64,000 nucleotides of DNA, from assembly GCA_024761205.1 (NCBI GenBank), contig JAMASS010000008.1, positions 62,001-126,000 on the forward strand. Reading direction: 5' to 3'. This stretch comes from Limisphaerales bacterium (lineage in GTDB: Bacteria; Verrucomicrobiota; Verrucomicrobiia; Limisphaerales; AAA164-E04). The translations under genes were made by a program, and so were the position numbers. Numbering within the stretch: position 1 is the stretch's first letter; each line of letters starts with the position of its first letter. The notes below the pieces were generated by a model. It was not told where the DNA came from and searched no databases. It saw nothing but the letters and a program-made list of their open reading frames with translations. This document shows, one piece after another, positions 29,551 to 47,591 of this stretch.

Positions 29551-29789
29551 AAACCGTCTAAGGGAGGGTGGAATCGGTCGTTGAATCTTGTGTATGTTTA
29601 GCCTCTCGAAGATGGAGACGCGAACTAGATTTGGCCGCAGTGGAGTGGGGGGATAGAAGCTGGCTTTTTCTATTTGACCCTCTCTGCAAATTCCAGTAAT
29701 TACCAACTTGAACTTCGCAACCTAAGCCAAATGGACGATTCACCCATGCCGGTTCTTTGTTGCCTCGTACAGAAAGAGAAGCGGATATT

Positions 29790-31637
29790 ATGAAGTCAAA
29801 ATCGTTTTTGGGGATCGACTTTGGGGCGGGCAGCCTGAAGATCGCCGAGTTCGAGCCGACCGAATCGGGCGGTATCTGCCTTCGTGCATTTGGTTCGCAT
29901 CCGCTCGGGCTCGCCGGCGCCCAAGAGGCTGTACGCGAGGGTGTCATCAAAAAGGCGATTCAAACGCTGTTGAGTGAGCAGCGGTTTTCCTCAAAGGATA
30001 TTAATGTTTGCGCGCCGGGATTTCATGTCTTTTCGAAGTTTGTGAAGTTGCCTCCGGTAGACTCGTCGAAGGTAACGCAGATTATTCAGTATGAAGCGCA
30101 GCAAAACGTTCCGTTTCCATTAGAAGAGGTGGTTTGGGATTATCAAATCCTTGGAGCCACCGGTAGCGGAGAGCTTGAGGTGCTGTTGGTCGCCATTAAG
30201 ACCGAGCTGGTCGAGAAGTTGTTTAAGACCGCTGAGTCCAACAACATGACGCTCAGCCTGGTTGATGTGGTGCCGTCTGCGCTTTGCAACGCGTTTCGAT
30301 ACAATTACGGCGATCTGAAGGGCTGCACGATGCTCCTAAACATCGGTGCGAAAACCAGTAACTTGCTCTTCTTTGAGGGTGGCAAAGTTTACTCTCGTAG
30401 CATCAACATCGGTGCGAATGCCATTACCCAGGAGTTTGCGAATGAGTCGAAGATCCGATTTCCCGATGCGGAGAAGTTTAAGATCGAAGAAGGTTTTGTG
30501 AGTCTTGGCGGCACCTATGAGGATCCCGATAATCCCAAGCAGGCGCAGATCTCAAAGATTGCTCGTCAGGTGATGACTCGTCTGCACATTCAGGTCAATC
30601 AGACCATGCAATTCTATCGCAGTCAGCAGGGTGGCTCGGCGCCCCAACGGCTTTTTCTGGCGGGCGGCGCTTCGATCATGCCTTACACGGCTCAGTTCTT
30701 CGCCGAAAAACTCAACGTTGAGGTCGAGTATTTCAATCCGTTCCGCACGATTCAGATTGATCCTTCCCTCAACTTGGAAGAATTGGCGAAAATTGCCCAC
30801 TCCTTCGGCGAAGTGGTCGGTTTGGGCCTGCGCCGGGTTGTGCAATGTCCGGTGGAGCTGAACTTAATGCCGAAATCGTCGCTGCGGCGACAAGAGTTCA
30901 ATCAGAAGAAGCCCTATTTTATTGCGACGGTGTTCAGCCTAGTGCTGGTGATCACGGCGATTGGTTGGTTCTTCTCCCAATTGACCCAGGAGAAGAATAA
31001 GGGAATCACGGTATTGAACGAACAGGCACAGCCTTTGCAGGCACTGTTAGACGAGTTGCAGCCGGAGGAGAACGCCTTGTCGAGCCAGATGGAGGAAGTT
31101 CGGGAGCTGACGCGATTTGTCCACGAGCGCTATTTCTGGCCAGATGTATTGACTGAAATCCTCAGTGCGATTTTGGCGGCGGAACGGGAAACCGAAAACA
31201 AACTGGGCGTTGATGCGGGAATCTGGATGACGTCGATCAAGCCGGATATTCCTGGCTTGGATGATTTGACCAAGGTCGAGGAAATCGATCTCTACGCGGA
31301 TGAGTCAGGCACCCAGCAGACCATGTGGCAGATGGATCGGGAAATGATGGAGCGGTATGGGCTGTTAGGCATGGAGGAAGAAGAGGAAGAAGAGGAAGAA
31401 GAGGAGGGGATCCTTACGCGGTTGAATCTGGTGTGCAAGGGCGTCAACCGCATTGGAATCAATCAGAACGCGAACAATCGATTGGCCTTTGAGTTGCTTT
31501 CACAACTTCACTCCCGAACAAATATCTTTGATCCGGCGGAAACCAAGCTCGTCGGCGATCTGGCGCCTGTGAGTGAGTCGGATAACACATTTGATTTTGA
31601 GGTGACAATCACGTTGGCAAACCCATTGGAACTCTAG
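29790..31637 (+). CDS. pilM: PilM-like actin-fold protein with PilN-like C-terminus (Amuc_1101 type)
   Basis: This 615-residue protein starts with SFLGIDFGAGSLKIAEFEPT, the phosphate-1 loop of the PilM/FtsA actin fold. It keeps NIGAKTSNLLFFEGGKVYSR near 194 and the adenosine block LFLAGGASIMPYTAQFFAEK near 288. A membrane helix (PYFIATVFSLVLVITAIGWF) near 372-391 is followed by a coiled-coil and a periplasmic domain. It is therefore a fusion of PilM with a PilN-like part, as in the Akkermansia Amuc_1101 context. An acidic run of about thirteen glutamates lies near residue 532. ATG 29790 is preferred to the TTG at 29757. It is the first gene of a four-gene operon; the next start is 4 bases after its stop. 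Confidence 0.88.
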   Translation: MKSKSFLGIDFGAGSLKIAEFEPTESGGICLRAFGSHPLGLAGAQEAVREGVIKKAIQTLLSEQRFSSKDINVCAPGFHVFSKFVKLPPVDSSKVTQIIQYEAQQNVPFPLEEVVWDYQILGATGSGELEVLLVAIKTELVEKLFKTAESNNMTLSLVDVVPSALCNAFRYNYGDLKGCTMLLNIGAKTSNLLFFEGGKVYSRSINIGANAITQEFANESKIRFPDAEKFKIEEGFVSLGGTYEDPDNPKQAQISKIARQVMTRLHIQVNQTMQFYRSQQGGSAPQRLFLAGGASIMPYTAQFFAEKLNVEVEYFNPFRTIQIDPSLNLEELAKIAHSFGEVVGLGLRRVVQCPVELNLMPKSSLRRQEFNQKKPYFIATVFSLVLVITAIGWFFSQLTQEKNKGITVLNEQAQPLQALLDELQPEENALSSQMEEVRELTRFVHERYFWPDVLTEILSAILAAERETENKLGVDAGIWMTSIKPDIPGLDDLTKVEEIDLYADESGTQQTMWQMDREMMERYGLLGMEEEEEEEEEEEGILTRLNLVCKGVNRIGINQNANNRLAFELLSQLHSRTNIFDPAETKLVGDLAPVSESDNTFDFEVTITLANPLEL

Positions 31638-31641
31638 AATT

Positions 31642-32868
31642 ATGAACTGGGTAAAAAGTAATCTTGGATTGATCATCGGAGGCGTGGTCGCCCTTGCCCT
31701 CATGGGAGTGGCAGGATGGTTTCTGTATACGCAGATGGAGGCTGAAAAAGCCGCTCAGGCAAGCCTTGAGCAGGGGATCATTAATTTGAAGAACTTGAAA
31801 AACCGCGACCCGCATCCGGGCGATCCGGCGCGGGGGATCGACAATATCGGCGCGGTCAAGAAAGAGCAGGAGAAGATTAATCGAACACTTCTTGAACCAT
31901 TGCGGGACTTGTTCAAATCCTTCGACGTGCCGAAAGATCTGGACACCTTCAAATTCAAGAGCTTGCTCGAGGATCGAATCGCAGCGCTGCAACGAGCCGC
32001 GGAGGGCGCGGGAACGGGACTGCCGAGCGAGGGCAATATGAATTTCAGCTTCTCCTTCGGAGACGTTCGGCCGAAGATGTCGTTCGCGCCGGAAACGTTG
32101 CAGCCAATGGCGTTTCAATTGATTCAGTTGGAATCCCTCTGCAAGGTTCTTTTTGATGCGAAGATCCATTCGATTAACAGCATCAAACGTCCTGAAGTGG
32201 CCGAAGCGGAGGAGGAGGAAGAAGAAAAGGAAGAAGAAGATGATTATTATGATGACGATATCTCGGCAAATCCATACGCAGGTTATACGAGTAGTTTCTC
32301 GTTAAGCTTGCCGAGTGACATCTACATTGATGACGTCCCTCTCACCAACGACATTACCGGTGCCATCATCTATCCTTTTCAACTGAGTTTCCAGTGCTTC
32401 AGCAGTGAACTCTCCGAGGTGATGGCCGGGCTGAACAACAACGAACATTTCTTCCGTGTCAAATGGTTGGTGGTAAAACAGTCGGCTGCGAGTAATCAGC
32501 AAATGGATCCCAACGAGGCACTCTATGGAACCGGCTCGCTGGATTCAGCCTACGCGGGAATGGATCCGGCATTAGCCCGTGGAATGACAGGCGCAGGGGA
32601 TGCGGGGCGCTATGGAGGTGCCTATGGAGGTGCCTATGGAGGTGCCTATGGAGGTGCCTATGGAGGTGCCTATGGAGGTGCCTATGGCGCCGGCTACGGA
32701 ATGATGCCACCAACGGGGATGATGACTGAAGATAACGCAATGGGTGATTTAGAAGAAAAACCATTGACGGTTAATATGCTTGTCGAGGTAATCTCCATCC
32801 CCACGCCGGTTGAAGAGTTAGAGGATAACCTTGATGGGGGCGATTTGTCGGGTTACGAGGCATACTGA
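31642..32868 (+). CDS. Amuc_1100-like membrane-anchored pilus/secretin scaffold protein
   Basis: This 408-residue protein has a single N-terminal helix (LGLIIGGVVALALMGVAGWF), a coiled coil, and two ferredoxin-like lobes. The lobes are recognisable in PMAFQLIQLESLCKVLFDAK near 155 and YPFQLSFQCFSSELSEVMAG near 235. This layout and the gene order match Akkermansia Amuc_1100, a PilO-like protein known for immune signalling in gut. Odd features are an acidic run (EEEEEEEKEEEDDYYDDD) near 193 and six perfect copies of a 12-bp unit coding Tyr-Gly-Gly-Ala near 324-347. These insertions make it longer than Amuc_1100 (317 residues). It probably spans inner membrane to secretin. Confidence 0.8.
   Translation: MNWVKSNLGLIIGGVVALALMGVAGWFLYTQMEAEKAAQASLEQGIINLKNLKNRDPHPGDPARGIDNIGAVKKEQEKINRTLLEPLRDLFKSFDVPKDLDTFKFKSLLEDRIAALQRAAEGAGTGLPSEGNMNFSFSFGDVRPKMSFAPETLQPMAFQLIQLESLCKVLFDAKIHSINSIKRPEVAEAEEEEEEKEEEDDYYDDDISANPYAGYTSSFSLSLPSDIYIDDVPLTNDITGAIIYPFQLSFQCFSSELSEVMAGLNNNEHFFRVKWLVVKQSAASNQQMDPNEALYGTGSLDSAYAGMDPALARGMTGAGDAGRYGGAYGGAYGGAYGGAYGGAYGGAYGAGYGMMPPTGMMTEDNAMGDLEEKPLTVNMLVEVISIPTPVEELEDNLDGGDLSGYEAY
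32611..32682 (+). repeat. six perfect tandem copies of a 12-bp unit inside the Amuc_1100-like gene
   Basis: TATGGAGGTGCC is repeated six times without a mismatch from 32611 to 32682, and a seventh partial copy (TATGGCGCC) follows. Each unit codes Tyr-Gly-Gly-Ala and changes in copy number keep the frame. Perfect identity implies recent expansion or frequent slippage. Confidence 0.95.
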
Positions 32869-32889: not shown

Positions 32890-33681
32890 ATGGAGTTCCT
32901 TAAGAAACACTACGAGAAAGTCATTCTCAGTATCGTGTTATTGCTGTTGGCAGTGGCAGCTGCTTACCTGCCGATCAGGGTTGCTGCGGTGAACAAGAAT
33001 ATTGAAGACGAGATTATTGGTGGCGCTCCGAAGCCGTTTATCCCGCTCGACATCAGCACCAACATCGCCACGCTTAATCGAGCGCGTAAATCTCAGCTGA
33101 AGCTCTCCGGGCCGGAGCATAATCTGTTCAATCCCGTAGGATGGGTGAAAAGCAAGGAGGGGAATCTGCTCAAGGATCCCTTCTATGGTCGAAAGGGGCC
33201 GGAGGCGTTGGTGTTGACCAATACGGTTCCGCTGTACTTCCGGGTGAAGTACGATCGTCTGGTCCAAGATGGAGATGAGATCAAATATTATTTTGGTGTG
33301 ACCCGGGAAGCGGAGACCAAGAGAAGAGATCGTCGACTCGTCACGCGGGTGATCCGAGCGCGTGACAAAAATGACATCTTCATTCTGAAAGAAGTAAAAG
33401 GTGCACCGACTCAACCGGAGGGATTCGTGATTACCCTCCTGGCGGACAATCGGGAGATTTTCGTCAGCTGCCAAGAACCGTATTCGGAAATCGCCGGGTA
33501 CACTGCTGATCTCGTTTATCCGCCGGAAGGCGGGAAGAAGTTTAACGCCAGGCGACGAGGGGACAAAATTACGATTGCCAAGAAATCGTACGAAGTCGTC
33601 GTCGTATTGGAAAATGAGGTTGTCATCAAAGACACCAAAACAACCAAGCAAACGACGGTGCGGTTAAATGCGTCCGAGTAA
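32890..33681 (+). CDS. Amuc_1099-like bitopic membrane protein
   Basis: This 263-residue protein has an N-terminal helix (YEKVILSIVLLLLAVAAAYL) after a short positively charged start. A periplasmic region follows, rich in beta strands and ending in a basic domain (RRGDKITIAKKSYEVVVVLE). No enzymatic motif is visible. It lies between the Amuc_1100-like gene and the secretin gene, the same place as Amuc_1099. A PilP-like role, linking inner-membrane proteins to the secretin, is the natural inference. Spacing to the previous gene is 21 bases. Confidence 0.7.
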   Translation: MEFLKKHYEKVILSIVLLLLAVAAAYLPIRVAAVNKNIEDEIIGGAPKPFIPLDISTNIATLNRARKSQLKLSGPEHNLFNPVGWVKSKEGNLLKDPFYGRKGPEALVLTNTVPLYFRVKYDRLVQDGDEIKYYFGVTREAETKRRDRRLVTRVIRARDKNDIFILKEVKGAPTQPEGFVITLLADNREIFVSCQEPYSEIAGYTADLVYPPEGGKKFNARRRGDKITIAKKSYEVVVVLENEVVIKDTKTTKQTTVRLNASE

Positions 33682-33727
33682 TTTTTGTAATTGTATGGGT
33701 CCCGAATTGAAAGCGAACCAGACTATT

Positions 33728-36616
33728 ATGCTACGTGCGTTTAGAATAGCGATGAATCTGACGGTGGCGGTCGCCGCTACCATGACGGCAATAGGTCAGC
33801 CTACCCAATCTCTGGTTCAGGATGAAATAGTGCGTCGGGAGGAGGCTCTCATTATCTTGCGAATGAAACTTGAGCAGGCGGAGGCGCTGAAGGTGGAGGG
33901 TGAGCTCATGAAAGCTGCGTTGATGTACGAAGAGGCGGTCCGGCAGTTGGAGCTTGTTGGGGAGATTCCGCAAGTTGAGGCTGAACGCGAGCGCACTTTG
34001 GCCGGGATGTCCAGTGTACGATTGAAGCTAGCTGCGATTAATCAGCGAAACAATGAGCTTGTCGAGGCAGATAAGCAGGTGGTTCGTGTTCTGAAGCTGA
34101 ACCCCAATGACGGTGCCGCGCTAAAATTCAAAGAGGCCAATGATAAGTTGCTGGCGCAGAATCGTGGCAAGGCACCTAGCCGGGAGACCCTGTCCCTCAT
34201 GCCCGAAATTGCCGAAGCCAAGATAGGAGCATCGGTTCTCGTGCAGGATGCCAAGCTGCTGTTAGAGGCCAATCAACTGGAAAAGGCGGAAGCTAAGCTG
34301 CTACAGGCGGTCAAGGAAGATCCGGAGAATCGTGCTGTTTGGCATTATCGATCCATCTTGGCTGAAAAGAAATATGCTCGGGAGGCTCGCAAACGGGAGA
34401 TCCATTCCAAAGTTAAGATGGTGGAGGTTGAAAAGGCTTGGTCGCCGCCTTTGCAGCGGCATCTATTGCCGGAGCCCAACCCTTACGTCCGGACGAACTT
34501 GATTCATACTGGTTCGGGACGGCAGAGGATTCAGTCGAAGTTGAACCGAATCGTCCTTGATCAAGTGCTTTTCGATGGCTTGCCTTTGAGCGAAGTGGTC
34601 CGGTTTTTATACGACGAGGCGCTGAAGCGGGATCCGGACAATGAGGGCATCAACTTTTTGGTGAATCCGAATATCGATACGCAACCTCCATTTACCCCCT
34701 TGAACATCGGTCCTTCGACCGGGTTTCCAGCCCCGGCTTTGCCGGCTGAAGATATTGACTTGTATAGTGTCAGCATCAACATCAACCCCCCCTTGCGGAA
34801 TGTGAAGCTGAAACACGTGGTAGAGGCGGTGGCTCGGGTTGCAGACACGCAACTTAAGGTGTCGGTTGAAGAGTACGCCGTTGTGTTCTCGAAACTGGTG
34901 GAAAACCCAGAGCCGCTCTATACCCGGCGCTACCGCGTTGATCCGAACACCTTCATTCAGGGGATGGAAGGTGTGACAGGTATTTTTCTTGATTCGTTGA
35001 TCCAGAGCACCGGCGGCGGCGGTGGCGGCTTTGGCGGCGGCGGTGGCGGCTTTGGCGGCGGCGGTGGCGGCTTTGGCGGCGGCGGTGGCGGCGGCGCTTC
35101 TCTGCCAATTTTAGGTATTGATCCCACCGGCTTGGGTGGTGGTGCCGGGGGTGGACTCGGCGGCGGCGGCTTTGGCGGCGGCGGCGGCATTGGCGGCGGC
35201 GGTCAGGGTGGCTTTAATCAGTTTGGGGCAGGCGGTTTCTCGGGTGTTTCTCGAGTGACTCTCATGCAAGACGTGCAGGTCTTGGTTCGCAACTTCTTCG
35301 CCGCTGCAGGCGTTAATTTCACACCCGGTCAGATCATTGGCGGGGGCCAGCAAGGCGGTGTTGGCTTGGGCGGCGGCGGCTTCGGTGGTGGCACTGCAGC
35401 CGGTGGCTTCGGTGACGGCCTCGGTGTTGGGGGGCCGAATGTTAGCAGCAAGGCTGTGTTTTTCAATGACCGAACGGGTATTCTGTTTGTCCGAGCAACG
35501 TTGACTGATTTGGACATTATTGAAGAAGCCATAGCAGCGTTGAACGAGGCGCCACCGCAATTGACGATTGAGGCGAAGTTTGCCGAGTTTACCCAGGATG
35601 ATGGCAGAGCTTTGGGCTTTGATTGGCTGTTGGGCAACACGCTCATTAACGGCGGCAAGATTGCCGGACAAGGGGGGAGTGCTCCCTCAATGAACGGTCA
35701 GCCTTCGGCCGCAAACTCGACGGGGCTGTTCCCTGCCACGGGTGGCGCGCCCACGGCGAACCCGGATGTGGCTAACGACCAGCTGTTGAGCAACGGGCTG
35801 CGAAACTTTGGGCCTGATGGCAATGTGTTCCCCTCCGTCGCCACGTTCACTGGTATTCTGACCGATCCGCAATTTAGAGTGGTCATTCGCGCGCTAGAAC
35901 AACGCGCAGGCATTGATATCCTAGCAGCGCCGGTGATTACTACGTTGAGCGGTCGACAGGCCACTATCAAGGCCAATGATATTCAGTCAATTGTTGTCGG
36001 TAACAACGCGAACCAGCAGGGTGGTGGTGGTGGTGGTGGTATTGTTGGTGGTACTGGTGCTGGTGTTGGTGGTGTCGGCGTCGGTGGTAGCGGAGTGATC
36101 GGAACCACGATCCAGCCGCAAACCGTTCCGATCCCGGTTGGTCCGACCTTGGATTTGGTGCCCTACGTTTCGGCCGATGGCTATTCCATCCAGATGACGA
36201 TTCTCCCGTCACTGATCGAATTTGTCGGATACGATGATCCGGGACCGTTTGCTGTGGTTGCGCAGGGTGGTGCGGGGAACACAGTTGGCGTCTCTTTGAC
36301 AGCTCAGTTGCCGTTGCCCCGTCTGCGAGTTCGACAAGTGGTGACGAGTGCCATCGTTTGGGACGGCCAAACGGTGTTTCTCGGGGGGTTGATGGCGGAG
36401 AATGTCCAGAAGACCAAGGACAAGATTCCGGTTTTGGGGGATATTCCCTTTTTGGGACGGCTGTTCCGTAGTGAATCTTCCTTCACTCAGAAGAAGAACC
36501 TGGCGATTTTCGTGACGCCCAAGATCATTGATCCGGCTGGTAACAGGGTCCATACTGAAGATAATCTTCCTTATGACCCTTCTACCGTGCCGCCTCAGGA
36601 GGCTCCTTTGAACTAA
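33728..36616 (+). CDS. outer-membrane secretin (GspD/PilQ superfamily, Amuc_1098 type)
   Basis: This 962-residue protein begins with a signal peptide (LTVAVAATMTAIGQP), then TPR-like helices (ALMYEEAVRQLELVG, LLEANQLEKAEAKLLQAVKE) to about residue 230. A plug-like and N-domain region follows, containing LNRIVLDQVLFDGLPLSEVV and ILFVRATLTDLDIIEEAIAA. The secretin pore domain has ITTLSGRQATIKANDIQSIV near 740 and the closing block TVFLGGLMAENVQKTKDKIP with VLGDIPFLGRLF near 890-920. Long glycine-rich inserts interrupt it near residues 430-495, 540-565 and 765-790. The frame is open to 33668, but ATG 33728 gives the better signal peptide. It would form the outer-membrane channel of the operon's complex. 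Confidence 0.9.
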   Translation: MLRAFRIAMNLTVAVAATMTAIGQPTQSLVQDEIVRREEALIILRMKLEQAEALKVEGELMKAALMYEEAVRQLELVGEIPQVEAERERTLAGMSSVRLKLAAINQRNNELVEADKQVVRVLKLNPNDGAALKFKEANDKLLAQNRGKAPSRETLSLMPEIAEAKIGASVLVQDAKLLLEANQLEKAEAKLLQAVKEDPENRAVWHYRSILAEKKYAREARKREIHSKVKMVEVEKAWSPPLQRHLLPEPNPYVRTNLIHTGSGRQRIQSKLNRIVLDQVLFDGLPLSEVVRFLYDEALKRDPDNEGINFLVNPNIDTQPPFTPLNIGPSTGFPAPALPAEDIDLYSVSININPPLRNVKLKHVVEAVARVADTQLKVSVEEYAVVFSKLVENPEPLYTRRYRVDPNTFIQGMEGVTGIFLDSLIQSTGGGGGGFGGGGGGFGGGGGGFGGGGGGGASLPILGIDPTGLGGGAGGGLGGGGFGGGGGIGGGGQGGFNQFGAGGFSGVSRVTLMQDVQVLVRNFFAAAGVNFTPGQIIGGGQQGGVGLGGGGFGGGTAAGGFGDGLGVGGPNVSSKAVFFNDRTGILFVRATLTDLDIIEEAIAALNEAPPQLTIEAKFAEFTQDDGRALGFDWLLGNTLINGGKIAGQGGSAPSMNGQPSAANSTGLFPATGGAPTANPDVANDQLLSNGLRNFGPDGNVFPSVATFTGILTDPQFRVVIRALEQRAGIDILAAPVITTLSGRQATIKANDIQSIVVGNNANQQGGGGGGGIVGGTGAGVGGVGVGGSGVIGTTIQPQTVPIPVGPTLDLVPYVSADGYSIQMTILPSLIEFVGYDDPGPFAVVAQGGAGNTVGVSLTAQLPLPRLRVRQVVTSAIVWDGQTVFLGGLMAENVQKTKDKIPVLGDIPFLGRLFRSESSFTQKKNLAIFVTPKIIDPAGNRVHTEDNLPYDPSTVPPQEAPLN
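35012..35095 (+). repeat. 21-bp tandem repeats coding a glycine-rich linker in the secretin
   Basis: The unit GGCGGCGGTGGCGGCTTTGGC recurs about three and a half times, coding GGGGGFG. Related glycine-rich stretches occur at 35155-35210, 35335-35430 and 36016-36100, the last with a run of GGT triplets. The high identity points to slippage-driven growth. No spacer structure is present. Confidence 0.85.
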
Positions 36617-36828
36617 GGGAAGCCGACGGATGAGGTTACAATCGTTAGAGGGAAAAATATTGTTGATTGTCTCAAATCTGAGGAAAGGCAGAGTTCTTGC
36701 TGACAATGTCATGATAGTTGTTGCTGACAACTTGAACGAGTGCGGGTCCGCTGGGTTGTTTAGGAAAGGTCGGCATCCAAAAAACCGGTAAAATGCTAAT
36801 AAACCTGTTTGGTGAATGAAAAGTGCCC

Positions 36829-38757
36829 ATGAAATTGGATAAAGGACAATGCATGTCTGTCTCGAAGGTGGTTGCTCTTAGTCTGTCGATTGCAGCCAGC
36901 TTCGCTTGGTTGGAACACGAGTTAGAGGCAGGGGTCACTCCCCTAGGAGGTGAGTATTCGATTCTGGGGCAGCAGATCGGCGATCAGTTTTTGCCTCAGC
37001 TAGCCCTCGGCGAATCCGGCGGGTATTTAGTCTGGCAGGATAACAATACGGACGGCGATGGTTTGGGTGTTGGCGCGGTCAGGTTAGACGGGAATTTGAA
37101 CGCTGTCATGGGAGCCTTCCAGGTGAATCAGGTAAGCGCCGGAGATCAGCAGCGGCCAGCAGTGACCATTCTTGATGGCGGGGGCGCCGCGGTAGTTTGG
37201 GAAAGCAACGGGGATATTTTTATTCGCTTTGTCAACGGCGGCGGCGTTTTTGTCGGACCAGAGCAGAAGGTTAATTCTTACATCCGAAGCCAACAACAGG
37301 ATCCTGCGATAACGACCTTGGACAACGGCAATGTTGTGGTTGTCTGGGGCAGCATGGAGCAGGATGGGGATTTGCAGGGAGTGTTCGGCCAGATCTTTGA
37401 TTCCGAGGGTGATAAGATCGGTGCCGAGTTTATCGTGAATCAGTCGAGTGCCTTTAATCAGCGGACTCCTTGTATTGCGGCGCTGGAGCAAGGTGATTTC
37501 GTCGTTAGTTGGATTTCGGAGCAGATTGACTGGACTGAAAGAGGTCGAGAAGCCCTGGAGGCTACGGGGAGCGAGCGTTTTCAAGTCAGTGCTTATGGTC
37601 GCGTGTTTGATGAGCACGGCAACGGGGTAACTGATGAGTTGTTGTTGGGCGATTCGGCGATTATCGACGCTAATCCTGCTGTGGCCGCTGTTGACGGTGG
37701 CTTTGTGCTCGTGACGAGCGGGCACGACAACGTGGCGAGAATCCTTGATCGATCAGAATTGAACCACAGCTGGGATATATACGGGCAGATCTATGATTCG
37801 ATGGGAAATCCTCAGGGCGATCGATTTAAGGTCAATGAGCACACTTTTGGGGATCAGGTGGTTCCTTTCGTTGCGGGTGTCGGTGACTCGGCTTTTATTA
37901 CCTGGACGAGTTTAGGGCAAGACGGTGATCAGGAAGGCGTGTTTGGCCAGTTTATTGATCGAGAAGGTCAGTTATCTTCGGAATTCCAGATTAACACGGC
38001 TACATATAGCAAGCAGATGTTCCCGACTATCGCTGTGGGCGGCGAAGGTCGCGCTTTGGTTGTTTGGGCTGGGTTTAGTGGCGGTCTGGACAGTTTTGAT
38101 TTAATGGCTCAACAGTATTCTTCGGAATCCGGTCTCCCGACTGTCGAAGCGCCGTTCGCCTTTGGCGCTGGTTACTGGTCGGTCGGGGTGAGTTGGCCTT
38201 TTGTAGATGGGGTTGAGGCGTACGAGGTTTACTTGGATGGAGCGGACACTCCTGTGGTGGTAAGTGGGAATCGTCATACCTTCAAGGGGCTCACAGCTGG
38301 GACTGAACACACGATTCAATTAGCCTACATTATGGGTGATGGGAGTCGTTCTGCGAAGTCGCAACCAATCACCGCGAGCACGTGGAGTCGAGATGAGAAT
38401 TCTGATGGCCTGCCAGACGACTGGCAGCGATCGTATTGGGGAGCGTCAATTGATGGTTGGCCGGCTGCCGAGTCTGATGCTGACGGCGATGGAGTGAGCA
38501 ATTTTGATGAGTTGTTGGCAGGCACTGATCCTTCCGATGCGGCCAGTCTTTTGCTGACCGAAGTTGTCTCCTCCGGCCAAGGGTTGCGGTTGCGTTGGAA
38601 CACTCGACCAGGCGGTTTCTACCAGGTACAGTTTTCTACCGATATTGGCTCCTGGCTGGATGCGGGAGCACCTCGATTGGCGGTTGATATTTCCGACTCA
38701 ATTTCAATTAGTAACGATCGAGGTATTGCGGTATACCGCGTGTGGCGGGTTAAATAA
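36829..38757 (+). CDS. large secreted repeat protein with FnIII-like and calcium-binding C-terminal parts
   Basis: This protein of about 642 residues has a signal peptide (VVALSLSIAASFAWLEHELEA). It has roughly seven degenerate repeats of 50-60 residues with the form QVNxxxxxDQxxPxVxxLxxGxxVVxW...DGDxxGVxGQxxD. A fibronectin-III-like domain comes next (VSWPFVDGVEAYEVYLDG). A thrombospondin-3-like calcium stretch (DADGDGVSNFDELLAGTDP) follows near 565. The last 60 residues form the tail GGFYQVQFSTDIGSW ... VYRVWRVK, shared with two other proteins here. Start could also be ATG 36853. It begins about 210 bases after the secretin gene. A surface or extracellular role is likely; no catalytic motif is seen. 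Confidence 0.75.
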   Translation: MKLDKGQCMSVSKVVALSLSIAASFAWLEHELEAGVTPLGGEYSILGQQIGDQFLPQLALGESGGYLVWQDNNTDGDGLGVGAVRLDGNLNAVMGAFQVNQVSAGDQQRPAVTILDGGGAAVVWESNGDIFIRFVNGGGVFVGPEQKVNSYIRSQQQDPAITTLDNGNVVVVWGSMEQDGDLQGVFGQIFDSEGDKIGAEFIVNQSSAFNQRTPCIAALEQGDFVVSWISEQIDWTERGREALEATGSERFQVSAYGRVFDEHGNGVTDELLLGDSAIIDANPAVAAVDGGFVLVTSGHDNVARILDRSELNHSWDIYGQIYDSMGNPQGDRFKVNEHTFGDQVVPFVAGVGDSAFITWTSLGQDGDQEGVFGQFIDREGQLSSEFQINTATYSKQMFPTIAVGGEGRALVVWAGFSGGLDSFDLMAQQYSSESGLPTVEAPFAFGAGYWSVGVSWPFVDGVEAYEVYLDGADTPVVVSGNRHTFKGLTAGTEHTIQLAYIMGDGSRSAKSQPITASTWSRDENSDGLPDDWQRSYWGASIDGWPAAESDADGDGVSNFDELLAGTDPSDAASLLLTEVVSSGQGLRLRWNTRPGGFYQVQFSTDIGSWLDAGAPRLAVDISDSISISNDRGIAVYRVWRVK

Positions 38758-38762
38758 TAATC

Positions 38763-40268
38763 ATGCTTGCTAGCTTTAAGATGAGTGGGTTTGTTCGAAA
38801 ACTGGCAATCACCTTGGTTGTCGTCGTTGGTGGAGGCGAGTTGCATGCCTTCGCGCTTTTGGGGCCTCGCCCGCCCTGGCAAACAGCGACTCTGGGTTAC
38901 ACCTCACCTCCGCCCGCGACTTTTGAAGGTGGTGCCGGTCCGATGAATCTCAATGAGGAATATCGCTGGAACGTGCCTGAAATCTATTACGGATACAGCC
39001 CTGAGTTTCTGTCTTATTTCGGTCAAAAGGGCGTGGACGCAATTGAGGAAGCGGTTGCGATGCTCAATGATCTTCCCTCGCTGGAGGATGTAGATTTGAA
39101 TGACTATCAATTGGAATCAGGGCGTATAAACTTGCGCGCTCTGGCCTTAGGATTAACGGATATCAAATCCGCCGCTTTGTCGCTGATTCTACAGGTTCGA
39201 GGGCTTTCGGACCCCACTCGCTATGTCTTCACGTTGCGCAACCGTTACATTCCCAACCCCCCTCTTCCGATTTTTTACCACGTAATAAAGAGAAATTTTG
39301 ATCCGGTGACGCTCCGGCCTAGTTCGTTCGTTAACGGTACTTTGTGGACTTATGTGGTTGAGGAGCTTGGAGACAATCGAGCTTGGGCGTTCAATTTTCC
39401 GGTTGACCCCTTGGAACGACTCTTGCCACGGACATTGCCTGTCGCCGGAGTTGATTTGAACGGGCTTCCTGATGGGTTTTTCTGGACACAATTGACTCGA
39501 GACGACGTTGGTGGCCTCAAGCATATTTATCGAAGGTCCAATTTTAACCCTGAAAACAGCGTGGCAGGCGTTTCTGATGGAACGGGAGGCATCGTTGATG
39601 GGGGAGCTACGGCGCCGGTTGGATTTCCTGGAGGCGGTGGTACGTATGACTTCCCTGGCGGGAATGTTGGCGTGGGTGGAGGACCGTATGATTTTCCGTT
39701 TAATGCCTTTACCAACAACGTGAATGCACCGCCGGTTGGCAATGTGGGTGTTGGCAACACTCCCGTTGCTCCTGCCGCGACACGGGCTGGGATTGACATG
39801 TTGAATATGGTGCGCTCTGACTATGACGCCCTCTTGGGAGTGTATTTCAATCCTCTGGAGATGCGATACAGTGAGACGATTTTAACCAATAATCGAGTGG
39901 GCTCACGCGCCTTGACTCGTACTGTGATTCAACCCGATATTATTTTCGATGCTTCAGACATTCAAGGCGGCGATGGCACTTCGGCGTGGCTCATCTGGAA
40001 TGTAACGGTTGCCGACAATAATTGGCTCAATAGCGATGCGTTGGATGGCGTCTCGGGCGATGATTTTGGGCCGGGTGTGGTCAATCCCCCATTTCGCATT
40101 CGGTTTAATACTGCCGGAGACGTGCTCCTCAACGAGAATCCTTCGTTTGTCACCGAAGAATCGGGGATTCGATTGCTGACTTGGGGCTCGTTCGATGGAA
40201 CCACGAATGACCCGGTGGTCTTTCCGGTGGGAACCTCAATATTTGATTTGGAAAGTCAAGTTCGCTGA
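38763..40268 (+). CDS. secreted protein of unknown function
   Basis: This 501-residue protein starts with a signal peptide (KLAITLVVVVGGGELHAFAL) and begins 5 bases after the preceding stop. Visible blocks include GYTSPPPATFEGGAGPMNLNEE, seen only in part, WNVPEIYYGYSPEFLSYFG, and TQLTRDDVGGLKHIYR near 250, recalling the end of a metalloprotease-type domain but without HExxH. A glycine-proline-rich linker spans about 275-340. It lacks the YxVE...FYRV tail of its neighbours, ending DLESQVR. I do not recognise the family; its place suggests it is exported with the neighbouring proteins. Confidence 0.7.
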   Translation: MLASFKMSGFVRKLAITLVVVVGGGELHAFALLGPRPPWQTATLGYTSPPPATFEGGAGPMNLNEEYRWNVPEIYYGYSPEFLSYFGQKGVDAIEEAVAMLNDLPSLEDVDLNDYQLESGRINLRALALGLTDIKSAALSLILQVRGLSDPTRYVFTLRNRYIPNPPLPIFYHVIKRNFDPVTLRPSSFVNGTLWTYVVEELGDNRAWAFNFPVDPLERLLPRTLPVAGVDLNGLPDGFFWTQLTRDDVGGLKHIYRRSNFNPENSVAGVSDGTGGIVDGGATAPVGFPGGGGTYDFPGGNVGVGGGPYDFPFNAFTNNVNAPPVGNVGVGNTPVAPAATRAGIDMLNMVRSDYDALLGVYFNPLEMRYSETILTNNRVGSRALTRTVIQPDIIFDASDIQGGDGTSAWLIWNVTVADNNWLNSDALDGVSGDDFGPGVVNPPFRIRFNTAGDVLLNENPSFVTEESGIRLLTWGSFDGTTNDPVVFPVGTSIFDLESQVR

Positions 40269-40286
40269 TAAGAAAGTTCTTGTCTT

Positions 40287-43127
40287 ATGGTTAAAAAGTC
40301 ACTGCTCCTGTCCGGATTGTTGTCTTACTCGGGTGCTCTGAATGTGTCAGCACAGGTAACGGAGCTTTTTGAAAATTTTAATACGGTAAACGCTGGATTT
40401 GAATTGCCGATCAACGCGATTTCGTTTGCCAATTACGGTTCCTTTACCGTTTCTTCCATCCTTCCTTACGACACGCTGAATACCCTGAATTTTACGAACC
40501 GAGGCGTAATGAACGGTTCAGTTGGGTTCAATTTCCAACATATTGCCTCCAATGGAACCCGAGGGCCGGCGAACAATTTTGTGAACAGTCGCGGAGCTGA
40601 AATCATCGTCGCTGGCGCGGAAACTAGCCCGGCTTTTCTCCTGATTGAGGCGGAGAATGTGATCAATCATGGCCGATTCCAAGTGGGACCGGGCGGGTTG
40701 TTGCGCATCACGGGCGAAAATGTTGATCTTTTTAATGCCGGAATGGAAGTGGAACCGATTACGGGTTCGGGGACATCTAGTGGCACGATCAATTTTATTC
40801 CGGATTCCGGCATCAGTGATCTTTACTGGGGCGGGATCACGAATCTCATCGCTGACTCCTCGATGGTCGTGGCCGTGGCTGGGCCGACGCTTGAGGTTCG
40901 GACGCCGGGACATTCGGTGACCAACGCATCTTTTTTTAGTTTTTTGGAGGAAATCAGCTTGGCCAACCCTCAGGCTTTTGCTATTTCGAACACCTTCAAC
41001 GAAACCAACAAGGTCGTTCAGGCGATTTTCACAGTGGTTGGTCCTGGGATGCGGACGGCCGCTAGGTTCACGCCTAGCACTTCAACTAACGACCTAAATA
41101 CCGCTCTGCTAGAGATCGTCGCCCCGATTACGAATGTAGTTGATGGCGGCTTAGACCAATTTTCCCTCTATCTGACCGATACCTTGGCTTGGAAGACGAA
41201 CCATCTTCAACTTTCTAACGTCTTGGCCGGAACGTTTCGTCCCGCAACCTATGAGTTGAGCCGGTTGCGGCCCTTTGAATGGTTTTCAGGCATGTTTCCT
41301 CAAGATATCCCTATTGTGCCCGAACTGTTTTACGGCTCGACTTATAGCAATACGACGACGACAAATCTCTATGCCGCCTACTCCGCTAGTGTAGCGAATC
41401 TGGTGACGCAACCGCTGTCGCTTGAGGAATCCACGGTTGACGATCTGCCCGGGCGTATTGAGATTGACGCGACCAATTTGGACCTGAGGAATTCTCGATT
41501 TCGCGGTGAAGGTATTGTCACAATTAATGCGGATCACTTGATCGGCAGCGCTGGCGCGGTCGTTGACTCGCAGAATGTGAGCTTTAATTTGGCTTCGACC
41601 AACGGAGTTCTTGAAGTTCGCGACGTGGGCAGAATGACGGCAGATCGATTTGGTGGCAGTCTGCGGGCCTTCAGCATGGTGTGGACGAATCAGAACGGCA
41701 CGGTCGAGGAGATGTCTACGGAGGATCCAGATACGGGCGAAGTCACGGATACATCCGTTACGAATGTGGTCAATATTTTTCATCATATTCTCGTGGTGGA
41801 CGCGCGACAATTGCAGACGACTGTGCCGGTATTCACTCATGACTTTACCGCCAATGGCGTGAATGTCGTCGTTCATGACGACTTTCGAATCGTGCGCTCA
41901 TTTCAATCGGACGCAGAAGATTTGGATGTTACTGGAGCGCTCAGTTTCTTTGGGGAAGCCGGGAACATCGTAGCCACGAATCTTCCCAACGTGCGCACCC
42001 TGGAAATTGATGGTTCTATTAGTGTTCCTGGCCTCGCCGAATTCGGAGTTGGCCGTGAGACCCCTCTGGAGAGTTTTATTAACCGTGGATCATTGACTGC
42101 ATTTAGTCCGAGAATCGCGACCGACTACTTTGAGAATTCCGGTGAAATCGCTGGTGGCGGCAATGTGGAGTTGGATGTGCGGACCGCAAAGCTTGATAAC
42201 GGCAACATCCTATCCGGTCGTGACATTACCTTGGCCGGAGAGAATGTAAAGCTTCATGAGGCAGAAGTCTCCAGCGGTTTGAGGATAGTCATCAATGTTA
42301 GCGGAGTTTTGACCGATAACGGACCGGGGTCGAACAATCTGTTGAGCGTGGGCGATGGATTTGTCATGAACACGCTTCCGGCTACCAGTGATCTCTTGGG
42401 AACAACTATCGAAAGTAGAGTGCCACGATTTGCCCGAGTCGATCATGTCTGGGTTGCGGAGGATCGTGGCGCTCTGGCAAAGGGTTTTAACAATAATGCC
42501 GCGATTGGCAAACTAGTGTTCATCGCTCCGCTCGGCAGTGAGGTTCGTCTGTCTCCGGCTAATGGCGAGAAAAACGCAATCTACGTTGATCGACTAGAAT
42601 TGAGAGGTGCCTTGGCTCAAGATTGGCGCGACACGCTCATCATAGATAAAGGAATGACCTTGTATTTCGCCGATGCGAACTTGTCGGTCGAGGAGCTAGA
42701 TGGCGCTTTTGGTGGCAGGCTTCGTTGGGTTCGAGGGTATGCCGGAGCCAACAGTGGCGTTGATATTGTCGTTTCACCCGACGGGAGGACAGAGCGAGTG
42801 AATCGAGGGTTGCGAGAGAGCCTAACGATTGACTCGGACGGTGATGGCACAGCAAACGGAATTGATCTGATGCCATTTGACGGCGTGATGTTGACGGACC
42901 TTGAGGTCGACACTGACGACGGAATCGTGCGAACGAGCATTTCTTGGATTGCGGCGGCTCAAACTGCCTATCAGGTTGAGTATCGCTCTGGCATCGACAG
43001 TAGCAATTGGAAGGTGTTCCAAGCGGTTAGGAATGAAGCGGATGAGCGACAAATGATGACGGTGACTGACGAAGTAAGCGTCGAAGAAGGTGTGCGGTTT
43101 TATCGGGTAACGTACCATCCTCGCTAG
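40287..43127 (+). CDS. large secreted beta-helix-like protein with shared C-terminal tail
   Basis: This 946-residue protein has a signal peptide (SLLLSGLLSYSGALNVSAQ) and a mature start ELFENFNTVNAGFELP. Long stretches of short, asparagine- and valine-rich beta turns (for example DATNLDLRNSRFRGEGIVTI) suggest a parallel beta-helix, as in adhesins or polysaccharide-binding proteins. Near the end it has DSDGDGTANGIDLMPFDG, a calcium-binding stretch, then the tail TAYQVEYRSGIDSSNWKVF ... VRFYRVTYHPR. No catalytic motif is seen. It follows the previous gene by 18 bases, so the three secreted genes from 36829 are probably one operon. Confidence 0.75.
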   Translation: MVKKSLLLSGLLSYSGALNVSAQVTELFENFNTVNAGFELPINAISFANYGSFTVSSILPYDTLNTLNFTNRGVMNGSVGFNFQHIASNGTRGPANNFVNSRGAEIIVAGAETSPAFLLIEAENVINHGRFQVGPGGLLRITGENVDLFNAGMEVEPITGSGTSSGTINFIPDSGISDLYWGGITNLIADSSMVVAVAGPTLEVRTPGHSVTNASFFSFLEEISLANPQAFAISNTFNETNKVVQAIFTVVGPGMRTAARFTPSTSTNDLNTALLEIVAPITNVVDGGLDQFSLYLTDTLAWKTNHLQLSNVLAGTFRPATYELSRLRPFEWFSGMFPQDIPIVPELFYGSTYSNTTTTNLYAAYSASVANLVTQPLSLEESTVDDLPGRIEIDATNLDLRNSRFRGEGIVTINADHLIGSAGAVVDSQNVSFNLASTNGVLEVRDVGRMTADRFGGSLRAFSMVWTNQNGTVEEMSTEDPDTGEVTDTSVTNVVNIFHHILVVDARQLQTTVPVFTHDFTANGVNVVVHDDFRIVRSFQSDAEDLDVTGALSFFGEAGNIVATNLPNVRTLEIDGSISVPGLAEFGVGRETPLESFINRGSLTAFSPRIATDYFENSGEIAGGGNVELDVRTAKLDNGNILSGRDITLAGENVKLHEAEVSSGLRIVINVSGVLTDNGPGSNNLLSVGDGFVMNTLPATSDLLGTTIESRVPRFARVDHVWVAEDRGALAKGFNNNAAIGKLVFIAPLGSEVRLSPANGEKNAIYVDRLELRGALAQDWRDTLIIDKGMTLYFADANLSVEELDGAFGGRLRWVRGYAGANSGVDIVVSPDGRTERVNRGLRESLTIDSDGDGTANGIDLMPFDGVMLTDLEVDTDDGIVRTSISWIAAAQTAYQVEYRSGIDSSNWKVFQAVRNEADERQMMTVTDEVSVEEGVRFYRVTYHPR

Positions 43128-43218
43128 GTATTGACCCGATAAATGGGAGACTTCTCAGACAGTGAGACAGTCGCCCGATTCTGGAAGGTTTGCTGCTTAG
43201 CAATGCTATTTTGAAAAG

Positions 43219-46200
43219 ATGACAAGATTCACGGCAATTGGGTTTTTAGCTGTCTGGGCGCTGGCGTCTTACCTTTCACCCGTCGTCCAGTCGGCGCAAT
43301 GGGCGATGGTTAATGGTCATTGGGCTCACTCGCATCAGTTGCTCGCGAAGTTGAAGAAAGATGATCCGGCTAGCCGCAAGCAGGTTAAACAGCTTTTGCG
43401 ACAGAAGGGACTGGCGATGATCAGCGAATATTCTCTGGTTCCGGGGCTCTGTGTGTTGTCAACTCCTGTGGTGGCACAGGGGCTGGGGCCGCGACATGGA
43501 GGGAATAACCTTGGGGGACTAGTTCAGGAGCTTGAGGCGTCAGGTCTGTTTGACTATGTCGAGCCTGATTATGTCTGGGAGGTCTACCGTTCGCCGAGCG
43601 ACGCCGCTTTTGAAAGCGGGATTCTTTGGGGGTTAAGAAACACGGGAAGTTTTGACATTGATATTGAGGCCGAAGCGGCTTGGGATATTACGACGGGCTC
43701 TCGGGACGTTATCGTGGGTGTGTTGGACACCGGGGTGCGTTACAGTCACCAAGATCTCGAGAATCAAATGTGGGAGAATCCCGAGGAGGTACCCGGCAAT
43801 GGGGAAGATGATGACGGAAACGGGTATGTGGATGATATCTTTGGGATTAATGCAATCGTTGATTCTGGAGATCCGCTTGATGACGATGGGCACGGGAGCC
43901 ACGTCGCAGGCATTCTCGGTGCCTCAGCTAATGATTCCGGTGATATGGTTGGCGTCGCCTGGGATCTGAGAATCATGGGATTGAAGGTCTTAGGCACGAA
44001 TGGCGGAACGACTTCTGATGTCATTCAGGGGTTCGAGTATGGCATTGAACATGGCTGCCGTATCATTAACGCCAGCTTAGGCGGGGGTGCCTTTAGTCAG
44101 GGCTTTTTTGACGTGATCGCTGAAGGGCAACGGAGAGGTGTTCTCCTCGTAGCTTCTGCGGGCAATGAAAACAGCAATAACGATATTTTTCCTTCGTACC
44201 CGGCGAACTATAACTTGGATAATGTGATCAGTGTTGCCGCCATGGATCGTTTTGGTGAAATAACTGAGTTTTCAAATTTTGGATTGCACACGGTCGATAT
44301 CGCTGCTCCGGGCGAAGATATTTTTTCGCTAGATATCGAAAATGATAGCGCCTATCAGGCGCGTGATGGCACGAGTATGGCTGCGCCTCACGTTTCTGGC
44401 GTCGCCGCGCTTGTTCTTGGCGCCTTTCCCGAGGCGACGGTGCATGAAGTGCGCGAACGGATTCTTTCCTCGGCAATTGAAGAGCCCGCGTTCTTTGGCA
44501 AGGTTGCCACCGGCGGTCGAGTGTCCGCGCTGGGGGCGTTGAGTGTCACTGGAGATGGAGCGTTGGAAATGACCGTGGATCCGCCTCACCAGTCCGCTCT
44601 TCAGCGCGGTTCGACGGCTTCCGTTGTGGTTCGAATTTCTGATGTCTTTGGAGTCACCGATGCTGTGGTCATTGGCGAACTGCTTCATAACGGTGAAACC
44701 ATTACCTTTGACAATACTGGCACGGTGCCGGATGTGCAGGCGGACGATGCTCTTTATACTTATGAGTTGATGGTTCCGGAAGACATCGACGAGATTCAGC
44801 TTACTGTGCGGGCTGAAGCGCCCAATAAGCAGAGCGTCGAAAGCGTAGTGCGTTACCTTGTCGTCGATCCGCCCATCAATGACAACTTTGAGTCGTCAGT
44901 TAAGTTGCCGGCGGAAGGGATTTCATTGGTGACGGACACGCGATTCGCTAGTTTCGAGATTGACGAACCTTTTCATGCCGAGGTTGATGATGTGGACTAT
45001 AGCCTCTGGTGGATATGGACGCCGCAGATGGACACTGAAGCCTTCGTTGGAACATCGGGAAGCAATTATGACACCGTTATTGGCGTCTACACAGGTAACG
45101 CGCTGACAGAATTGACTGAAGTGGCTTCGGTGAACGATGTCGGTACTCGCCCCGAAGGTTACTTGACATTCTCAGCGTTGGCGGGGACGACTTATCGGAT
45201 CGCTGTGGCGGGAGCTGCTGAGGGGGAATTTGGTACTCTGCGTTTTCGACTGACGCCGGGCGGGGCACCAGATTTAATAGCTCCCATTGTTGCGGTTACT
45301 GCTCCGACCAGCGGCATTTTGACAGATGAGAACCGTCTGGTATTGGAAGGCACGGCGTTTGATCCCAAGCCGAATTCCAGCGGTGTGGGCTTTGTCTTCC
45401 TACGGGCGAATGACGAACCTATTGGCAGGATCGCCAACGGAACCACCCGTTGGACCTCTCCGGTACCGTTGGTGCCGGGGCAAAACACGATTCAGGTGAC
45501 GGCGACCGACTTTTCAGGGAATACGTCTGAGGCACGGACTATTGGGGTAATCTACTTGATGCCGGAGCCACCAAACGATCATTTCGCCGAGGCCGAGGTT
45601 CTCAGTGGCGACACTGGTGTGGTGAATGCAATTAACCAATTGGCGACAAAACAATTTGGCGAGCCGCTGCATGCGGGAAATCGGGGTGGCGCTTCCGTTT
45701 GGTACTCCTACACACCTGCTGTGGACGGTGTCTTAAGCCTGCAGATTCGACGAGCAAGTTTTGACACCGTTATGGCGGTTTACACCGGGACCAGAGTTGC
45801 TGAGCTGCAGCATATCGCTTCCAACGACGATGCGATGCCCGGGCGTGGTGAGAGCAGCATCACACAGGCAGTGCGGTCGGGCGTCAAATACTCAATTGCG
45901 GTTGATGGTTTTGCAGGACTCGTTGGTCAGGCCGATCTACAATACGAATTTACTGCGAGCGCTGTTTTTACTCTCAGTGTAGAGAGCGGGCCAGGCGGGA
46001 GCGTGTCTCCGGAATCGACCGTTATGGTGGGAATGGGCGAGGAGCTGACCTTAATGGCGGAGCCTTTTGCCAACTTCAGATTTGTCAAATGGAAGGGAAG
46101 CGTAACCTCTACAGACAACCCGTTGATCTTAGTGATTGATAAGGATATTTCGTTAGAGGCTGTATTTGAATCCACGGTGTTCGATGGATTTGAATCAGGG

Positions 46201-46797
46201 GATTTGACCTCAGGCGACTATGGTTCCGGTGGCAACCAACCGTGGGGTGTAGCCAAGGGGTTTGCCTCTACCGGAGATTTCTCCGCCAAAGCTGGGGACA
46301 TTGGGGATAATGAGAACAGTTCGTTATTTCTTAACGCCGTGCTCGCTGGAGGGAGTGGCTCCTTCGATTTTCAAGTGAGCTCCGAGGAGAGATGGGACTT
46401 CCTAGAATTCTTGATTAATGACGAGTTGATTCAACGATGGTCGGGCGAGATCACTTGGCAGAGTTTCGAGTTTGTAGTGCCTGCTGGAAATGTACGGCTA
46501 GAATGGAGGTATTCCAAAGATTTCACCAACACCGTCGGCGATGACACGGCTTACATCGACAATTTAAGGCTCCCGTTTGATGGTCCAAGGCTGTTGGTGA
46601 ATCCGATTCGTGGCGGTGGCGTGGAGCTGTGGATTAATGGCACGCCTGGCCAGACGTACAATATCGAATGGTCCCGAGATTTGATCGATTGGACGTTGTT
46701 TGCGGTTGAAACCACAGATGCTGGAGGCGAAATTCGAATTTTTGACTCAGAGTTTGATTGCACCGAGCAATGCTATTTTCGGGCAGTTATCCGGTGA
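43219..46797 (+). CDS. secreted subtilisin-like protease with multidomain C-terminus
   Basis: This 1192-residue S8 protease has a signal peptide (GFLAVWALASYLSPVVQS), an inhibitor-type propeptide, and the triad in GVLDTGV (Asp near 170), HGSHVAGI (His near 224) and GTSMAAPHVSG (Ser near 386). After the catalytic domain come an Ig-like domain, two prepeptidase C-type domains (YDTVIGVYTGN, FDTVMAVYTGT) and an Ig-like stretch between them. An InlB B-like repeat (GGSVSPESTVMVGMGEELTL) near 925 and a jelly-roll-like domain follow. The tail is QTYNIEWSRDLIDW ... CYFRAVIR. It is likely cell-surface or extracellular and could process the neighbouring proteins. It starts 91 bases after the preceding gene. 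Confidence 0.9.
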   Translation: MTRFTAIGFLAVWALASYLSPVVQSAQWAMVNGHWAHSHQLLAKLKKDDPASRKQVKQLLRQKGLAMISEYSLVPGLCVLSTPVVAQGLGPRHGGNNLGGLVQELEASGLFDYVEPDYVWEVYRSPSDAAFESGILWGLRNTGSFDIDIEAEAAWDITTGSRDVIVGVLDTGVRYSHQDLENQMWENPEEVPGNGEDDDGNGYVDDIFGINAIVDSGDPLDDDGHGSHVAGILGASANDSGDMVGVAWDLRIMGLKVLGTNGGTTSDVIQGFEYGIEHGCRIINASLGGGAFSQGFFDVIAEGQRRGVLLVASAGNENSNNDIFPSYPANYNLDNVISVAAMDRFGEITEFSNFGLHTVDIAAPGEDIFSLDIENDSAYQARDGTSMAAPHVSGVAALVLGAFPEATVHEVRERILSSAIEEPAFFGKVATGGRVSALGALSVTGDGALEMTVDPPHQSALQRGSTASVVVRISDVFGVTDAVVIGELLHNGETITFDNTGTVPDVQADDALYTYELMVPEDIDEIQLTVRAEAPNKQSVESVVRYLVVDPPINDNFESSVKLPAEGISLVTDTRFASFEIDEPFHAEVDDVDYSLWWIWTPQMDTEAFVGTSGSNYDTVIGVYTGNALTELTEVASVNDVGTRPEGYLTFSALAGTTYRIAVAGAAEGEFGTLRFRLTPGGAPDLIAPIVAVTAPTSGILTDENRLVLEGTAFDPKPNSSGVGFVFLRANDEPIGRIANGTTRWTSPVPLVPGQNTIQVTATDFSGNTSEARTIGVIYLMPEPPNDHFAEAEVLSGDTGVVNAINQLATKQFGEPLHAGNRGGASVWYSYTPAVDGVLSLQIRRASFDTVMAVYTGTRVAELQHIASNDDAMPGRGESSITQAVRSGVKYSIAVDGFAGLVGQADLQYEFTASAVFTLSVESGPGGSVSPESTVMVGMGEELTLMAEPFANFRFVKWKGSVTSTDNPLILVIDKDISLEAVFESTVFDGFESGDLTSGDYGSGGNQPWGVAKGFASTGDFSAKAGDIGDNENSSLFLNAVLAGGSGSFDFQVSSEERWDFLEFLINDELIQRWSGEITWQSFEFVVPAGNVRLEWRYSKDFTNTVGDDTAYIDNLRLPFDGPRLLVNPIRGGGVELWINGTPGQTYNIEWSRDLIDWTLFAVETTDAGGEIRIFDSEFDCTEQCYFRAVIR

Positions 46798-46949
46798 CAA
46801 TAAAGATTCCGCTTCAGCCCCGGTCTTTCAGTGAGTTTTTTCGGCTGCGGATACGGAGTTCTCTTCTTGCGTATGGTCGTCCGCATTCCTGTTTTCTCGC
46901 TTGGCCTCTGATCAGGTTAAATTTTTCCGCGTTCGTTGTGACTCATCGC

Positions 46950-47591
46950 ATGAGTGTCATCGGGATCACCGGCGGGATTGGAATGGGGAAGTCGACCGTG
47001 ACCGATTGGTTGGCGGAGACGGGCATGGCTGTGGTGGACTGTGACGTGATTGCGCGTGAGTTGACCGCAGCTGGGGGTGATGCGATTGGTGAAATTGTCG
47101 AGGCTTTTGGTCCGACCGTGCTGGATGCTGACGGTGCGCTATCTCGTGCTCGAATGGCGGACATTGTCTTCCGAAATCAGGAATGTCGCGAACGATTGGA
47201 GGCGATTCTTCATCCTCGAATCCGCATAGCATGGAAGGCGCGGTGCCGTTCTTATCGGAGCCCCGGATCTGGGCCTGTCTTTGTCGCTATTCCGCTGCTT
47301 TACGAAACCGGCGCGAGCGAGGAATTTGACTTGATAGCATGCGTAGCATGCGGGGCTGTGGAGCAGAGGTCTCGACTAAGAGCTCGGGGCTGGAGCGACG
47401 AGCATATTCAGCGACGACTGGGTGCTCAGTGGAATATTGATCGGAAGATGCGCTTGGCTGATATTATTGTTTGGACTGGCTGTTCATTGAAAATGGCAAA
47501 GCGTCAAGTTCGATGCTTGATCCAGACCGCCGAGCGCTTGGCTCTGCAGAGTAGATTTGTTTGCGGGAAGGGTGATATCAGGCGGGCTTGA
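46950..47591 (+). CDS. coaE: dephospho-CoA kinase
   Basis: This 213-residue cytoplasmic enzyme phosphorylates dephospho-CoA in the last step of coenzyme A synthesis. It starts MSVIGITGGIGMGKSTVTDW, containing the P-loop GGIGMGKS, followed by VVDCDVIARELT, HPRIR, and VAIPLLYETG. RLRARGWSDEHIQRRLGAQ matches the lid region. The frame is open to 46758, overlapping the protease gene, but ATG 46950 lines up with the family start. The gene is independent of the secreted protein group. Confidence 0.93.
   Translation: MSVIGITGGIGMGKSTVTDWLAETGMAVVDCDVIARELTAAGGDAIGEIVEAFGPTVLDADGALSRARMADIVFRNQECRERLEAILHPRIRIAWKARCRSYRSPGSGPVFVAIPLLYETGASEEFDLIACVACGAVEQRSRLRARGWSDEHIQRRLGAQWNIDRKMRLADIIVWTGCSLKMAKRQVRCLIQTAERLALQSRFVCGKGDIRRA

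Follow-up and report, generated by a model that had tools for sequence, protein, structure and literature searches.

In Akkermansia, the locus Amuc_1098-1102 is a pilus-like cluster whose secretin is abundant in the outer membrane (PMC4960237; PMC5332112); under the name MUL2, it takes part in mucin use (PMC13174399). Two further systems provide the closest comparisons for C-terminal elements common to unrelated exported proteins: the PEP-CTERM/exosortase system, and the C-terminal sandwich domains of the T9SS (Por_Secre_tail), which are found on many secreted proteins, tens per genome. For the T2SS substrates PelI and Pel3, loops 3 and 5 of an Fn3 domain are experimentally shown secretion determinants (PMC7949064). 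The locus described here lies in a window of 64,000 nucleotides, the whole stretch of DNA analysed, from a Limisphaerales bacterium (contig JAMASS010000008.1), in which a MUL2-type operon is followed by four genes, p1 to p4 (Table 1); the products of p1, p3 and p4 end in a common module, hereafter the tail.

An extended MUL2-type operon

The secretin operon that the sequence-only reading had placed immediately 5' of the tail proteins is indeed there (29757-36616), and it is the Amuc_1101-1100-1099-1098 set: PilM, Amuc_1100, Amuc_1099 and secretin occur in the same order as in Akkermansia, with coaE downstream as in Akkermansiaceae (PMC13174399). It differs from the Akkermansia locus in that all four proteins fall under the NCBIfam curated or equivalog cut-offs, in that an EPS glycosyltransferase or a sugar dehydratase, and no Amuc_1102 (MUL2A) pilin gene, lies beside PilM at the locus itself, and in that p1-p4 are inserted between the secretin and coaE.

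This insertion is conserved. With six p1 sequences as query, 80 loci were gathered from named genomes, mostly of Verrucomicrobia subdivision 3, Limisphaerales and Pedosphaera; wherever the flank sufficed, a secretin lies upstream of p1 (64/64), the operon has its full four genes (56/56), and p2 (73/73) and p3 (Table 1) follow downstream. In related loci from other orders, coaE either comes right after the secretin or is separated from it by other genes, and full-length p1 was not found in the other 239 genomes of a 240-genome sample of the phylum, all of them outside the order; p1-p4 are therefore a Limisphaerales-specific insertion between secretin and coaE, and the gene cluster is a conserved, previously undescribed extension of a known pilus operon. 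Among the loci of other orders, four (L241, L242, L244, L250) have a gene resembling the 5'-3' exonuclease domain of DNA polymerase between secretin and coaE, and five (L241, L242, L247, L249, L251) a membrane protein of about 700 residues.

Table 1. Features of the locus, with positions in the window.
Feature	Position	Strand	Evidence
PilM-like gene, Amuc_1101 family, MUL2B	29757..31637	+	NF045709 E 5e-142; PF11104 3.8e-34
Amuc_1100-family pilus-like protein	31642..32868	+	NF038287 E 1.2e-15, under curated cut-off; syntenic in 56/56 loci
Amuc_1099-like protein	32890..33681	+	NF042425 E 0.01 only; position and synteny
Secretin, Amuc_1098 family	33668..36616	+	PF00263 3.8e-29; NF042912 2.1e-99
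p1: signal peptide, about seven W-motif repeats of ~50 residues (putative propeller), FN3, TSP3 repeat, tail	36823..38757	+	tail in 97/97 orthologues
Tail module of p1	38530..38754	+	profile match E 8e-25; AlphaFold2 pLDDT 88.5
p2: without tail; residues 30-258 matrixin-like	38763..40268	+	fold matches all MMP catalytic domains, Z up to 4.5; tail in 0/86 orthologues
p2 degenerate zinc-site segment (ALSLILQVRGLSDP region where HExxHxxGxxH expected)	39171..39215	+	alignment; no HExxH in any orthologue
p3: large exported protein, body fold unassigned	40287..43127	+	syntenic in 63/63 loci
Tail module of p3	42873..43124	+	profile match E 2.4e-27
p4: subtilase with Ig-like and InlB-B-type domains	43219..46797	+	PF00082 2.4e-56; PF18998 1.3e-7
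Tail module of p4	46573..46794	+	profile match E 2e-29; present in 27/29 orthologues
coaE (dephospho-CoA kinase)	46758..47591	+	gene after secretin in related loci of other orders; PMC13174399

The proteins beside the secretin had been read as different cargo sharing one tail; p1-p3 are instead conserved orthologues of one gene cluster, and a role of p1-p4 as interchangeable cargo was rejected on the grounds of this synteny. Their bodies had been named as a repeat protein, a beta-helix and a subtilase, of which the first (the W-motif repeats of p1) and the last (p4, by PF00082) stand, while the beta-helix of p3 is without Pfam support. The tail is present in every p1 orthologue and in nearly all of p4 (Table 1), and among p3 orthologues it is found in 49 of 79 at E<0.01, several of the others appearing diverged by eye.

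The cluster also holds p2, which was absent from the three proteins first listed and carries no tail. The matches listed for its residues 30-258 are all to MMP catalytic domains (rmsd 2.4 over about 100 residues, Foldseek E >=0.6), so that this part resembles the matrixins (MMP, M10), yet with a Z of only 4.5; where these have their zinc-binding HExxHxxGxxH, p2 has the segment 'ALxxLLExLGLADP', and the site is lost in all orthologues. Because the Foldseek E-values are weak, the likeness is a lead only: p2 may be a matrixin without zinc ligands, a candidate pseudo-protease kept in every cluster locus. As a whole, p1, p2 and p3, usually with a large fourth protein, extend the MUL2-type pilus/secretin operon in a way specific to Limisphaerales. 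Both p1 and p3 have the tail as a fixed part, and we infer that they probably act at the outer-membrane pore or outside it, capturing or processing substrates. The conserved set is an undescribed addition to a pilus/secretin system that is tied in Akkermansia to mucin use.

A module at the ends of exported proteins

A profile built from the three tails links p1 (which starts at 36823, the earlier start having been given as 36829), p3 and p4, recovering all three together with extra copies in the same genome (E down to 4.7e-7), so that the common C-terminal module first noticed by eye in these proteins is borne out. Pairwise, the tails of p1 and p3 and those of p1 and p4 align above 1000 of 1000 shuffles; the p3-p4 pair, taken alone, is not beyond shuffles (234/1000). 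The motif proposed for the module, Y-x-[VI]-[QE]-x-S/R-x-x-[IL]-x-x-W with a later [FY]-R-[VA], fits p1 and p4 exactly, but p3 carries a two-residue insertion (YQVEYRSGIDSSNW). The conserved residues are core-like (W, Y, FYRV); elsewhere identity is about 25%.

For the genome counts the profile was enlarged with confirmed members. The tail then occurs in at least 16 copies at E<=0.001 in its own genome, in 39 of 40 genomes of relatives from the order Limisphaerales, typically with 10-59 copies each, and in 122 of the 240 Verrucomicrobiota genomes, for which copy counts are lower bounds, the best 25 candidates per genome having been scored. One genome of the same order (G017; 2.6 Mb, 94% complete) has zero matches, and the profile found none in a plasmid collection. 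Neither Pfam nor NCBIfam holds a model describing the tail, the best scattered matches being local similarity to F5/8C and DUF3999, and a literature search found no publication on it. Over much of the phylum, polysaccharide degraders included, genomes contain tens of copies of a domain that is without a family model; its description would annotate the ends of many exported proteins now called 'hypothetical', and would help to show how enzymes reach their places outside the cell in Verrucomicrobiota.

In the loci that were read, almost every tail match ends a few residues before the stop. The bias is not absolute: of 50 copies inspected in one genome with 63 (G217), 43 have the stop at most 20 residues beyond their end, and the other seven are internal, with an SGNH-type hydrolase, TSP3 repeats, Cys-rich ends or other sequence after them; N-terminal copies also occur, in sulfatase-like and other proteins. 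The bodies are diverse and mostly of extracellular type (GH16, sialate esterase with BNR, LRR, FG-GAP, beta-helix, Ig-like), and a crude signal-peptide script is positive for 30 of 44 tail proteins, compared with 37 of 128 background frames. The tail is thus shared, as had been proposed, by unrelated exported bodies; since it ends exported proteins by the dozen across Verrucomicrobiota, it is not a private tag of the adjacent pore, nor private to the neighboring secretin locus.

TSP3 repeats, which precede the tail in p1, were ruled out as its obligatory partner, lying beside only 9 of 47 copies in G217. In three loci a short Cys-rich end comes after the tail copy (CGCGGTH, CECYSG..., CGCGTNCNCG), possibly a distinct terminal element; in another, a single frame joins a HisKA_3 kinase fragment, a LamG-like end, a TSP3 repeat and a tail, and is either a gene fusion or an assembly chimera. 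In the own genome, the tail-bearing proteins include a cyclophilin-type peptidyl-prolyl isomerase and a thioredoxin-like (AhpC/TSA) protein, from two loci.

The strong C-terminal bias, the unrelated bodies and the tens of copies per genome are also what a dedicated sorting or anchoring signal would show, cleaved or attached by an enzyme of some new machine, in the manner of T9SS C-terminal domains or PEP-CTERM. This is improbable: internal copies have other domains after them, the tails end in neither a hydrophobic nor a basic segment, and no partner gene was found. The tail resembles PEP-CTERM in being C-terminal and common to unrelated exported proteins, but it is predicted to be a folded domain, without PEP motif, transmembrane helix or basic end, and no TIGR02595-type or other PEP-CTERM model matches it, as the sequence-only reading had already remarked. 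With T9SS C-terminal domains it has in common the position, the sandwich and the number of copies, but not the sequence, none of the T9SS tail models in Pfam and NCBIfam matching any of 34 tail members at E<=1; some tail copies, moreover, are internal. Both identifications were rejected for want of a profile match, and an outer-membrane beta-barrel signal was rejected as well, since the tails have no aromatic last residue. A search for SprA matched 0 of the 40 relatives, but matched no control genome either. Directly 5' of the PilM operon, at 26294-29550 of the window, lie an XrtA-like exosortase, an EpsI-like protein and a WcaJ-type exopolysaccharide glycosyltransferase; the genome therefore probably has a PEP-CTERM system, one independent of the tail.

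Predicted fold of the tail

In the AlphaFold2 model (68 tails, pLDDT 88.5), strands are predicted at residues 20-25, 28-34, 40-46, 65-70 and 78-83, with short C' pieces before the last two and the end at residue 85. The best fold matches, by Foldseek and VIA-align, are FN3 domains: tissue factor (Z 7.2), PelI (6.8) and Pel3 (6.6), followed by tencon (6.3) and the Fn3-like domain 3MPC of C. thermocellum (6.0), to which the tail profile also has a sequence match of E 0.026. In single-domain chains the aligned ranges end at about residues 76-79, before the ends of the chains (e.g. 1-76 in 4lpu_A). Between strand F and the stop there are a median of 4 residues in p1 and p3 and of 3 in p4, which leaves no room for a strand G.

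The tail is thus best described as an FN3-type beta sandwich with strands A, B, C, C', E and F and without strand G. No fold match reaches a Z score of 8 or a Foldseek E-value as low as 0.01, so that the assignment rests on the common sandwich and the weak sequence match to 3mpc; with Z scores this moderate, it is well supported rather than demonstrated. Relative to fibronectin type III (PF00041), the tail has the same predicted strand order but lacks the seventh strand, and it is placed C-terminally, where FN3 is placed between domains; none of 34 tail members reaches the gathering score of PF00041, the best being one member at E 0.1. An identification with half a discoidin (F5/8C) domain was discarded, as the PDB and Pfam matches cover the local YxvxxSxDxxxW stretch alone and the predicted fold is FN3-like.

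We consider it fairly probable that the tail folds and serves in attachment or recognition, a binding role that we infer. Verrucomicrobiota add this small domain, usually as the last one, to Sec-exported enzymes and surface proteins. After Sec export it would fold and, possibly via the open edge of strand F, bind to a component of the surface, a glycan or a partner protein; it would be neither a cleaved sorting signal nor a tag specific to the adjacent secretin. Two points sit less easily with this reading: the moderate FN3 assignment, and a terminal bias (43 of 50 copies no more than 20 residues from the stop) that exceeds what an ordinary accessory domain would require.

The missing strand could also make the tail a strand acceptor, its strand G being supplied by a partner in donor-strand complementation that would fix the proteins in a surface assembly. 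Terminal copies indeed have no strand G, and internal ones pass straight from strand F into other domains; against this, the AlphaFold2 model is confident without a partner and no donor peptide was identified, and we regard such an arrangement as quite unlikely.

Tail and secretin across the phylum

If the tail belonged to the neighboring secretin, as part of a dedicated export system, its presence and number should follow the secretin operon from genome to genome, and they do not. Of the 240 genomes of the phylum sample, the secretin profile matches 232, at a threshold that accepts any secretin, and 122 have the tail: 121 have both, 111 the secretin only, one the tail only and seven neither. 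A second profile (PF00263) still detects a secretin in genome G075, and genome G147 has four matches to the tail profile, one of them within a GH16 frame of 547 residues, and only a broken remnant of a secretin. In 16 loci of other orders, no secretin neighbor carries a tail. A weak association remains, confounded by lineage: of the eight genomes that the secretin profile does not match, one has tails (hypergeometric P=0.03), and a single family accounts for five of these eight genomes. The 111 secretin-only genomes, G147 and the 16 tail-less loci together mean that a dedicated tail-secretin export system is not supported. The two checks that the earlier interpretation had set for itself, on co-occurrence with the secretin and on terminal position, both came out largely against it. 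Of that interpretation there thus remains the shared C-terminal module on exported bodies, distinct from PEP-CTERM, and not its pairing with the adjacent secretin.

A general secretin-dependent route for tail proteins is possible, and provides the best rival to attachment: the folded tail would be recognised in the periplasm by a secretin-type exporter, T2SS or MUL2-type, and the protein would exit through the secretin. PelI and Pel3, in which this kind of domain determines T2SS secretion (PMC7949064), are among the best bacterial fold matches of the tail, the tail-bearing bodies are exported, and GspE-type ATPases (238/240) and secretins (232/240) make a machine available in nearly every genome; the ATPases, being near-universal, are uninformative on a linkage to T2SS. 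The domain of PelI and Pel3, however, is N-terminal and seven-stranded, FN3-like folds are common, and p2 lies in the same cluster without a tail; these differences, with the secretin genomes that have no tail and the tails of G147, leave the route rather unlikely.

A broader proposal is similarly doubtful, namely that Verrucomicrobiota have an undescribed outer-membrane route for which the FN3 tail without strand G is the signal, either for export or for assembly at the surface. The tail would be recognised either folded, as the Fn3 domain of PelI and Pel3 is by the T2SS, or via a donated strand, and p1-p2-p3 would be fixed parts, at the surface, of one machine of this kind. In G147, a genome of 1.7 Mb, the secretin remnant is at G147:C6:72220-72626, and GspE-type ATPases are retained.
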